This document shows, piece after piece, positions 13,592 to 20,339 of a DNA stretch of 64,000 nt; the stretch's first letter is position 1, and every line of letters begins with the position of its first letter. The notes under the pieces are model-generated. The model was not told the origin of the DNA and searched no databases. It saw nothing but the letters and a program-made list of their open reading frames with translations. The position numbers were made by a program, and so were the translations under genes. This DNA is from Maricaulis sp. (GTDB lineage: Bacteria > Pseudomonadota > Alphaproteobacteria > Caulobacterales > Maricaulaceae), in NCBI RefSeq assembly GCF_017642925.1, contig NZ_JAEPOL010000003.1:185448-249447 (forward strand). The letters are read 5' to 3'.

Positions 13592-13670
13592 ACGCTGTTG
13601 TGTTTGAAGAGAAAAGCGCCACTTCCCCCGGACGTGTTCCGGGGAAAGCGCTTGAGCCCCGGACAGCCTC

Positions 13671-15413: not shown

Positions 15414-15593
15414 GGCCGCGACCACCAAGCGCCACTTCCCCCGGACCTGTTCCGGGGCCTGCCGCCCTCCCCCGTCCAGGCACCCCTGCGCGACCCTCAC
15501 AAGACCCCGGAACGGGTCCGGGGAAAACGGGTGAGTGTGTGAGGAAGAGCGCGGCCGGCGCGCAGCCAGCCTTAAATCCCTTGCCGGCAGGGG

Positions 15594-15675
15594 GCCGTAT
15601 TGAATTCCCGCGGTCAAGGGTGAGAACCGCGAAGCGGCGGCTCCGCCGCCCTTGACCGCGGGAATTCAATACGGC
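15594..15675. repeat. Perfect 27-bp inverted repeat with 28-bp structured spacer
   Basis: gccgtattgaattcccgcggtcaaggg (15594-15620) and its exact reverse complement (15649-15675); spacer contains cggcggctccgccg. Confidence 0.95.
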
Positions 15676-15814
15676 TGGGTCTCGGCATGGGGTTTATGGG
15701 GCGGTGTGGGGGGGCATCAGAAAACGGTGCGTGTCCTCGTTTTTAGTCCGAGCTCTTCCAATTTTCGGCAGAATCATTATGTTCCTAAATTGTTCTGCGC
15801 GAGGATGGGGTCGT

Positions 15815-16207
15815 ATGCGCATTCCACTTATTACAATCATCGGCTTTGTCGCTGGCGCCTTGGTGCTTTTCATTCTCGCCGTTTTGGCAGGAACTTTTTT
15901 CAACTCCAATGTAGCGAGAGAGTCAGCATCTATAAACTACACAGATTTTATATCAATATTGTTATCCGCGATATCACTATTGATGACATTGCTTGCATTT
16001 TTTCTAGCTGTTCTTGGTTTCATCGGATGGAATGCTCTGAGTGAAAAAGTGTCAAGCAAGACTGAAGAATTCCTCGAAAACGGCTTCAAAACCGGAGAGG
16101 ATCTACATAAGTTACTAGAATCAAAAGTAAAAGAAGTGATGTACCAAGGAGTTTCCCAAGTAGATGGAGATGCGGAGGAAGACGTCAGAGAGGAAGACCC
16201 ACTATGA
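15815..16207 (+). CDS. Small membrane protein with two predicted TM helices and cytosolic coiled-coil-like tail
   Basis: MRIPLITIIGFVAGALVLFILAVLAGTFF...ISILLSAISLLMTLLAFFLAVLGFIGW; stop overlaps next start (ATGA); longer ORF from 15704 possible. Confidence 0.75.
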   Translation: MRIPLITIIGFVAGALVLFILAVLAGTFFNSNVARESASINYTDFISILLSAISLLMTLLAFFLAVLGFIGWNALSEKVSSKTEEFLENGFKTGEDLHKLLESKVKEVMYQGVSQVDGDAEEDVREEDPL

Positions 16208-16713
16208 GTGGCCTCATTATAGACCGCGCAAATGAAGATGAGCTGAAAATCGTTCGAGATTTCACTTCAGAAAAACCCGTGCGAGTCGCTCGGCTTGCGC
16301 GAGCCCTTGGCTTAGACGTCAAACTCGCAAGCCTAAAGCCGAACATTTCTGGAATGATTCGACCTAGCGACGTGTCGCCGTCTGGCTTCGAAATTCGCAT
16401 TAACAAATTTGAGATGCCGGAAAGGCAAAGGTTCACTATTGCCCATGAAATTGGACACTTTTTGCTACATAAAGAGCACATCGGAAATGGTATTGTAGAC
16501 TCTGTTCTATACAGGTCAAAGCTCTCAAATACGCTTGAGGCACAAGCCAACAAAGCCGCTGCAGACATAATTATGCCCGCAGCACTAATTCGCGAAGACC
16601 TACGCAAGCTGCGCTCGCGAGGCGCCTACAGCGAGAAAGAAATTCTGGACGTGCTTGCAAGAAACTATAACGTGTCAAAGCAGGCAATGAGTATCAGAAT
16701 TGGCGCGAAATAA
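16204..16713 (+). CDS. ImmA/IrrE-family metallo-endopeptidase
   Basis: HExxH motif in RFTIAHEIGHFLLHKEH, followed by EAQANKAAADIIMPAALI. Confidence 0.92.
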   Translation: MSGLIIDRANEDELKIVRDFTSEKPVRVARLARALGLDVKLASLKPNISGMIRPSDVSPSGFEIRINKFEMPERQRFTIAHEIGHFLLHKEHIGNGIVDSVLYRSKLSNTLEAQANKAAADIIMPAALIREDLRKLRSRGAYSEKEILDVLARNYNVSKQAMSIRIGAK

Positions 16714-17769
16714 ATGCTTGAAGCGATCGACTACGTTCCCATTTTACATACGCGGGTTGCGGAGATCAAAGCGCTAAAGAATGTACCCACCCTTCTCAAA
16801 GATCTGACCCTTCCCGTTCTGGTCTTGCGCCCTTGGCAGAACGCTTCGCGCATTAATTTTTTTTGGGACAAGGTAGAAGACGCGATCGCCCGAAGGCCAT
16901 TCGCTCTGGATTTGGATTGGGGCTACGAGCTACGCGAGAATCGTAGCGCCGACCAAGAGTTTGGAGAGCTGAGAAACCCGGACAACGGGTTTCAACAATA
17001 TTTTGATTTCGTTCGGGGCGGCTCAAACTTCGCGATACCCGTCATCCAGCACCGAGGCGCCGACGGCGACTGTTTTCGGGAGCAGGTTGATAGAGCCAAC
17101 ACACTTGGCCGTGGGGCCTTCTACCGTATGCCGGTGAACGACGCGGGAGCGTTGGTGGCTCTACAGCGATACTTGTTGGATGAAGTAGAGCGGTTGGTCA
17201 TCGTAGTAGATGCCGGTTGGGGCTCCCATATTCTTGAACATGAGCTATCCGCTAGCAGGCTGGTGGAAATGGGTTTGGCCGCAACAAACCCGCCGGAATT
17301 CGTGATTGCGGGAAGCAGCTTTCCCGATAGCTTCGGACACATCTTGGGACGTGCAGAGATACCTATACGCGAGCGGCAACTATACAACGCAGTTTCGCGT
17401 CGACATAACGAAGCAGAACTCACCTATGGCGACTGGGGAAGCACCCGCCCGCCCAGTCGCGGCGGCGGAGGCGGTGAAATTCCGCCTCGGATTGATTGGC
17501 CTCGTCTAGCAGAATGGGTGTGCTTCAGAGCCTCTGGTGGGGAAACCTACCAAGATATGGCGAACGCTGTTCTTGAAGAAGACGATTGGGACGCCGATCA
17601 CAGCAGTTGGGGGATGTACCTAATTCAGGCAACTGCCGAAGGCGCTCCGAATGCAATTCGCACTCCGGGCGCAGCAGCAGCCGCGAGAATAAACCTGCAT
17701 TTGATTTCTCAGGCGGCACATGAAGTGCACGACTGGACGGAAGATGACGAACCTTATCCAGACGACTAG
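16714..17769 (+). CDS. Beta family protein (T4 beta-protein-like)
   Basis: 351 aa; AIPVIQHRGADGDC, SSFPDSFGHI, IPIRERQLYNAV and YGDWGSTRPP segments; starts directly after the upstream stop (taaatg). Confidence 0.7.
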   Translation: MLEAIDYVPILHTRVAEIKALKNVPTLLKDLTLPVLVLRPWQNASRINFFWDKVEDAIARRPFALDLDWGYELRENRSADQEFGELRNPDNGFQQYFDFVRGGSNFAIPVIQHRGADGDCFREQVDRANTLGRGAFYRMPVNDAGALVALQRYLLDEVERLVIVVDAGWGSHILEHELSASRLVEMGLAATNPPEFVIAGSSFPDSFGHILGRAEIPIRERQLYNAVSRRHNEAELTYGDWGSTRPPSRGGGGGEIPPRIDWPRLAEWVCFRASGGETYQDMANAVLEEDDWDADHSSWGMYLIQATAEGAPNAIRTPGAAAAARINLHLISQAAHEVHDWTEDDEPYPDD

Positions 17770-17812
17770 TTAGTAGGTCGCTCCTCCGACTTCGTCACCC
17801 TCTCACCACTTT

Positions 17813-17850
17813 AAAAAAAGAGGGACGTGTACCCAAGGTACATGTCCCTC
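17813..17850 (-). terminator. Rho-independent terminator of thiC
   Basis: gagggacgtgtacc/caa/ggtacatgtccctc stem (17820-17850) followed on the minus strand by TTTTTTT (17819-17813). Confidence 0.9.
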
Positions 17851-17859
17851 CGCCGAGCC

Positions 17860-20339
<2,480 letters not shown>

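Follow-up and report, generated by a model that had tools for sequence, protein, structure and literature searches.

We find that three abutting genes of Maricaulis sp., encoding a small membrane protein with two transmembrane helices (2TM), a stand-alone ImmA/IrrE peptidase, and a Beta protein, form a unit that is kept together in the same order across genomes and is carried on phage contigs and plasmids. In the 64,000-nucleotide stretch analyzed here (contig NZ_JAEPOL010000003.1; hereafter the window), the trio lies beside thiC, in a slot that holds other cargo, much of it of defense type, in sister genomes. A role in anti-phage defense is likely for the trio. More tentatively, and with a confidence that falls somewhat short of even, we propose that it belongs to the P4 gop-beta lineage as a variant, mobile system of the abortive-infection type that works by the mechanism set out below.

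Gene content and layout of the cassette

The three-gene cassette described in the sequence-only reading is present in full, with the 2TM, ImmA/IrrE, and Beta ORFs abutting on the forward strand. The 2TM gene is best placed at 15815–16207, since its ATG has a GAGGA motif about 10 nt upstream and agrees with the alignment of homologues; ATG 15779 and GTG 15704 are alternative starts. The ImmA gene (16204–16713) overlaps the stop of the membrane gene by 4 nt (ATGA), and the Beta gene (16714–17769) begins directly after the ImmA stop (taa-atg). The DNA is AT-rich, as first noticed, with GC dropping from 66–71% to 42–57% over 15750–17750 in surroundings of ~66% GC, beside thiC. By contrast, the start originally given to the cassette, 15594, lies in a noncoding palindromic repeat region (15549–15713), which was delimited by a repeat search, blastn against sister genomes, and a copy count in its own genome. 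This repeat contains a long, near-perfect palindrome at 15594–15675, with arms of about 27 nt (15594–15620 and 15649–15675) and a 28-nt spacer, and is essentially single-copy in its own genome. An intergenic ACCCCGGAACGGGTCCGGGG-type repeat is found further out, at 13626, 15117, 15181, 15439, and 15504 (5 copies in the window vs 0 expected). At the other end, a hairpin at 17820–17850 (−25.2 kcal/mol, z −7.0 by strand folding) separates the convergent trio and thiC (17860–19809, reverse strand), and is a probable bidirectional terminator. Promoter and terminator scans gave scores no better than shuffle level.

Profile searches of the three proteins bear out the M78 peptidase and Beta assignments, and leave the 2TM protein with no Pfam, PADLOC, or NCBIfam family above cut-off. 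Specifically, the 2TM genes tested have no meaningful match in PADLOC 2.0.0, and its gop model finds none of them, yet recovers P4 gop at 4.8e-70. The 2TM protein was also considered as a Gop homologue and rejected at the sequence level (hhalign probability below 1% against P4 Gop), agreement being limited to the 2TM topology and the gene position. The protein consists of two TM helices, a short helical/charged stretch, and an acidic C-terminal tail, and this tail is acidic in 88% of members (net charge of −3 or less over the last 16 residues). Outside the membrane, most members expose just a short loop.

The second protein is a bare 169-aa zinc peptidase domain (Pfam Peptidase_M78, 3.2e-15), whose best PADLOC match is CapP (capP, 2.5e-27) and whose nearest solved structures are CapP (7t5t, the best PDB match) and IrrE (3dte). 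Its M78 ligands are intact, with HExxH at 81–85 plus E112, and H81, E82, H85, and E112 are invariant in 68 sequences. The likeness to the CapH/CapP regulator of CBASS stops at this domain: the trio has neither a CapH-type HTH partner nor CBASS genes, and its peptidase has no C-terminal domain beyond the peptidase itself. In agreement with the original observation that an HTH partner is missing, Pfam, PADLOC, and NCBIfam detect no HTH in the peptidase or in the other two cassette proteins. By the measure used for the 2TM tails, no ImmA protein has an acidic tail, and prediction gave no candidate ImmA cleavage site.

The third gene belongs to the Beta family, as had been proposed: Pfam Beta_protein (PF14350) matches at 6.8e-43 over profile positions 1–340 of 342, PADLOC beta at 4.7e-36, and tblastn recovers P4 beta at 1e-7. 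The PD-Lambda-2_C model of PADLOC matches weakly (9.3e-7). An AlphaFold2 model built from 12 sequences (mean pLDDT 87.6) predicts a TIM-barrel-like fold. Foldseek with this model yielded generic TIM barrels alone (best PDB E 1.4e-4, TM-score about 0.4 on the query), and therefore we claim no enzyme activity for Beta; a sequence search against the PDB returned nothing meaningful. Ten residues (E17, D240, S243, R259, D261, R272, R325, N327, H329, and Q333) are invariant or nearly so, which suggests a conserved pocket. Beta tails are acidic in 68/68 sequences by the same measure as above, and among the Betas examined a strongly acidic tail is confined to those that have 2TM partners, the ones with Xre-ImmA or sce7726-only partners lacking it.

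Conservation and spread of the trio

Homologues were collected through Pfam and protein searches (several hundred genomes), a scan of viral contigs, and a search that took one genome from each species. In the last of these, 70 of the 75 named genomes with a Beta relative carry 2TM, ImmA, and Beta in this order; the 75 loci were located by patterns from trio Betas, and the fraction hence describes linkage among such Betas rather than among all Beta proteins. The patterns came from a 7-row Beta alignment, a 15-row alignment being too diverse, and a single-protein scan of the genome contigs with the window Beta gave no match. The 5 exceptions are contig-edge or fragmentary copies, one broken-frame copy, and one fused copy. 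ImmA starts no more than 20 nt from the end of the 2TM gene, or inside it, in 63/70 loci, and the same gene order recurs in about 20 further loci from the other searches. The neighbors are therefore conserved together, and a chance insertion is ruled out.

The three genes are also recovered by profile in 9/11 viral loci; of the other two, one contig ends upstream of ImmA (L044), and in one the ORF filter kept 2TM and Beta but missed ImmA (L050). Neighbors on the viral contigs include a tail hub gene (L045), a cytosine methylase (L048), and an integrase (L049), and a further trio resides on a conjugative Neorhizobium plasmid. Spread is patchy, with 1/19 sampled same-genus genomes and, in the order, 10/299 genomes with a Beta match, and in the reverse search the five best peptidase matches in these 299 genomes all adjoin a Beta gene. 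The three proteins also have correlated pairwise distances (Spearman 0.56–0.61), as expected for joint inheritance. Taken from sequence comparison, these patterns support a mobile, horizontally spread, phage-borne unit. Two damaged copies were also seen: a trio split by insertion sequences in an Aeromonas caviae record (L019), and a decaying trio with its Beta gene broken into pieces (G357, L015–L017).

The Beta tree resolves two well-separated groups, each with 100/100 support. The first holds Betas with Xre-ImmA or sce7726-only partners, i.e. a PD-lambda-2-like arrangement; PD-lambda-2 itself is absent from the tree, and the Xre-ImmA loci serve as its stand-ins. The second holds Betas with 2TM partners, namely those of the trio and of gop-type loci, including P4 and Pasteurella phage Pmp11, such that trio and P4-type Betas lie on one side of the tree (100/100). 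Within it, gop-type Betas form one group nested in a grade of trio Betas, with moderate support and some long branches, and because of this nesting ImmA may be ancestral in the 2TM-Beta lineage and lost in P4.

Gene content varies around this theme. A convergent sce7726/cII gene, sce7726 being the counterpart of P4 cII, is added in 26/70 trio loci, and a viral example matches PADLOC cll at 4.5e-15 (L045); the window cassette has no cII, and thiC comes after the trio. Two genomes of the order carry 2TM and ImmA with no Beta in the flanks read (L178 in G978, L179 in G874), which may represent the system in its minimal form, and the Sphingomonas sp. 7/4-4 chromosome (L148:8967–9977) encodes a natural in-frame 2TM::ImmA fusion. 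The Beta-less pairs and this fusion suggest that the 2TM protein and ImmA are the working core. Two other loci of the same order (L040, L041) combine a Gop-like 2TM gene, Beta, and a convergent sce7726, and the PADLOC gop model does not recover the 2TM gene of L041.

A variable slot on the 3' side of thiC

Comparison with same-genus genomes reveals a variable cargo slot (window 15713–17854; L079–L089) that runs from the 3' end of thiC, a conserved host gene by the ORF list and sister-genome comparison, to the palindromic repeat. The repeat marks its outer edge, and blastn places it at the matching position in several genomes of the genus. Named by PADLOC and Pfam, the cargo of the slot includes DzbA (6.5e-89) and DzbB of Dazbog (G001), HEC-01A (9e-155) and HEC-01B (G002), PDC-S45 (1.6e-111; G010), a PD-T7-3-like gene (1e-20) next to an FRG-like gene (G003), TIR proteins (G004 and G015), and an HSP90-like ATPase (G005). 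Another slot holds a gene that neither PADLOC nor Pfam names (G012), and one has no AT-rich cargo (G007). G008, with a ThiC 99% identical to that of the window, has different AT-rich DNA in its slot. On proximity to known defense genes, a point left for checking by the sequence-only reading, the slot provides a defense-type genomic context, with Dazbog, HEC-01, TIR, PD-T7-3-like, and PDC-S45 genes at the same site in sister genomes, and the 3' side of thiC seems to accommodate cargo rich in defense genes in Maricaulaceae relatives.

A trio also adjoins thiC in a Euryhalocaulis genome (G021). Its Beta nests with Sphingomonas and Phenylobacterium Betas and not with the window Beta, so the two trios were probably acquired separately. 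A search for an att-like direct repeat around the trio found no second thiC 3' end in the window. In two sister loci, a second partial thiC 3' end lies in direct orientation just past thiC (L081:705–820 and L084:729–849), a possible trace of integration at thiC, and extra thiC 3' matches of a similar kind occur in G037 and G041. Across other genomes, the 115 immediate neighbors of the 75 loci include scattered matches (DRT, type III methylase, PD-T7-1, and retron PRTase, along with integrases and resolvases) among many housekeeping genes; as the count has no control set, we give it little weight.

Candidate mechanism and relation to known systems

The sequence-only reading knew of no characterized system with this composition. 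For the exact trio our literature search, with most subscription papers and preprints outside its reach, likewise found no description of a 2TM-ImmA-Beta system; however, two tested systems that share parts with it had been overlooked, gop-beta-cII (PMC9122126) and PD-lambda-2 (PMC9519451). In P4, gop-beta-cII confers protection from lambda and P1, and Gop proves toxic when Beta is missing (PMC9122126, Rousset 2022). In PD-lambda-2, the Xre-peptidase is toxic and the first gene rescues, and the Beta-related third gene is needed for defense and not for neutralization (PMC9519451, Vassallo 2022). The trio resembles gop-beta-cII in its small 2TM protein directly upstream of an acidic-tailed Beta of the same clade, in its phage carriage at variable cargo sites, and in the cII/sce7726 gene of many loci; it differs in carrying an ImmA peptidase, which P4 lacks, in a 2TM protein with no detectable Gop similarity, and, for the window copy, in the absence of cII. 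With PD-lambda-2 it shares a three-gene operon in which an ImmA/IrrE peptidase gene is followed by a Beta-related gene at the end. By contrast, the trio opens with a 2TM gene that PADLOC does not match and PD-lambda-2 with a HigB-like gene, the PD-lambda-2 peptidase carries an Xre domain that the bare M78 domain of the trio lacks, and the trio Beta sits away from Betas with Xre-ImmA partners.

The earlier suggestion of a stress or anti-phage module fares well in its anti-phage part, given the defense-type context and phage-borne spread, and poorly in its proposed control by a membrane sensor. Nothing supports the 2TM protein as a sensor; its small size, its acidic cytosolic tail, and the analogy with P4 Gop make an effector role no less probable, and control may therefore run in either direction.

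We infer a defense function for the trio, together with the effector, substrate, and trigger that the following scheme would assign. An HTH-less ImmA would either have been added to a small 2TM protein and Beta or have been kept alongside them. The 2TM protein would be a membrane-damaging effector kept inactive via its acidic cytosolic tail, ImmA would be bound beside it as a protease switch, and Beta, with its TIM-barrel-like fold, conserved pocket-like residue set, and own acidic tail, would restrain or sense. Upon infection the restraint would be lifted and ImmA would cut the tail or the restrainer, and the freed 2TM protein would then disrupt the membrane, such that the infected cell stops before phage release. 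Bacterial gasdermins, in which an adjacent protease licenses a membrane effector, offer a working analogy only, and we claim no homology. We favor this scheme because it explains the 2TM::ImmA fusion, the Beta-less pairs, the relationship to gop, the intactness of the active site, and, as candidate control elements, the acidic tails. Against it, the Beta-less pairs imply that Beta is not the sole antitoxin in this lineage, the 2TM protein shows no detectable homology to P4 Gop, and the toxic part of PD-lambda-2 is the peptidase, not its partner (PMC9519451). The scattered defense matches among the neighbors and the lack of a predicted ImmA cleavage site count against it as well. The two precedents, P4 gop-beta and PD-lambda-2, disagree on which part is the poison.

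Close behind ranks a PD-lambda-2-like arrangement, rather unlikely on its own account, in which ImmA would be the harmful protease effector, the 2TM protein its anchor and inhibitor (antitoxin), and Beta an infection sensor that releases ImmA. The roles found in PD-lambda-2 (toxic Xre-peptidase, rescuing first gene, Beta-related gene for defense only; PMC9519451) speak for it, and the Beta-less pairs and the 2TM::ImmA fusion would fit a self-contained protease/inhibitor pair, but the trio peptidase has no Xre domain, its partner is a membrane protein and not HigB, and in the tree its Beta sides with those of P4-gop type, apart from the Xre-ImmA stand-in loci. We regard as improbable a plain toxin-antitoxin or element-maintenance module of phages and islands with no phage-specific trigger; P4 gop/beta is a precedent for such a pair (PMC9122126) and the trio does travel on phage contigs and plasmids, but unrelated defense genes occupy the sister-genome slot, which argues for selection for defense and not for maintenance. 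The patchy, phage-borne spread and the defense hotspot weigh against stress signaling too, as do the cassette's missing HTH repressor and the short exposed loop of most 2TM members. Stress or induction circuits are where ImmA/IrrE peptidases typically operate, but we consider it very improbable that the 2TM protein serves as an envelope-stress sensor that switches on ImmA to act on Beta or a distant host regulator.

Beyond the effector scheme for this cassette, it is conceivable, albeit somewhat unlikely, that the trio represents a widespread, unrecognized anti-phage class in which a bare ImmA proteolytically licenses an adjacent 2TM effector, with Beta as an add-on sensor or restrainer and P4 gop-beta as a protease-less cousin; 2TM-ImmA, 2TM-ImmA-Beta, and 2TM-ImmA-Beta-cII would then be versions of it. 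The trio is not a new category, because its Beta belongs to one tested lineage and the combination of ImmA and Beta to another tested system. As the tested 2TM genes have no meaningful PADLOC match, gop included, PADLOC 2.0.0 would not recognize the cassette as complete. Beta proteins are part of two experimentally tested defense systems, and the trio links both and shows which parts swap; its natural variants, with no Beta, no ImmA, or a fused 2TM::ImmA, make the roles of these parts testable.
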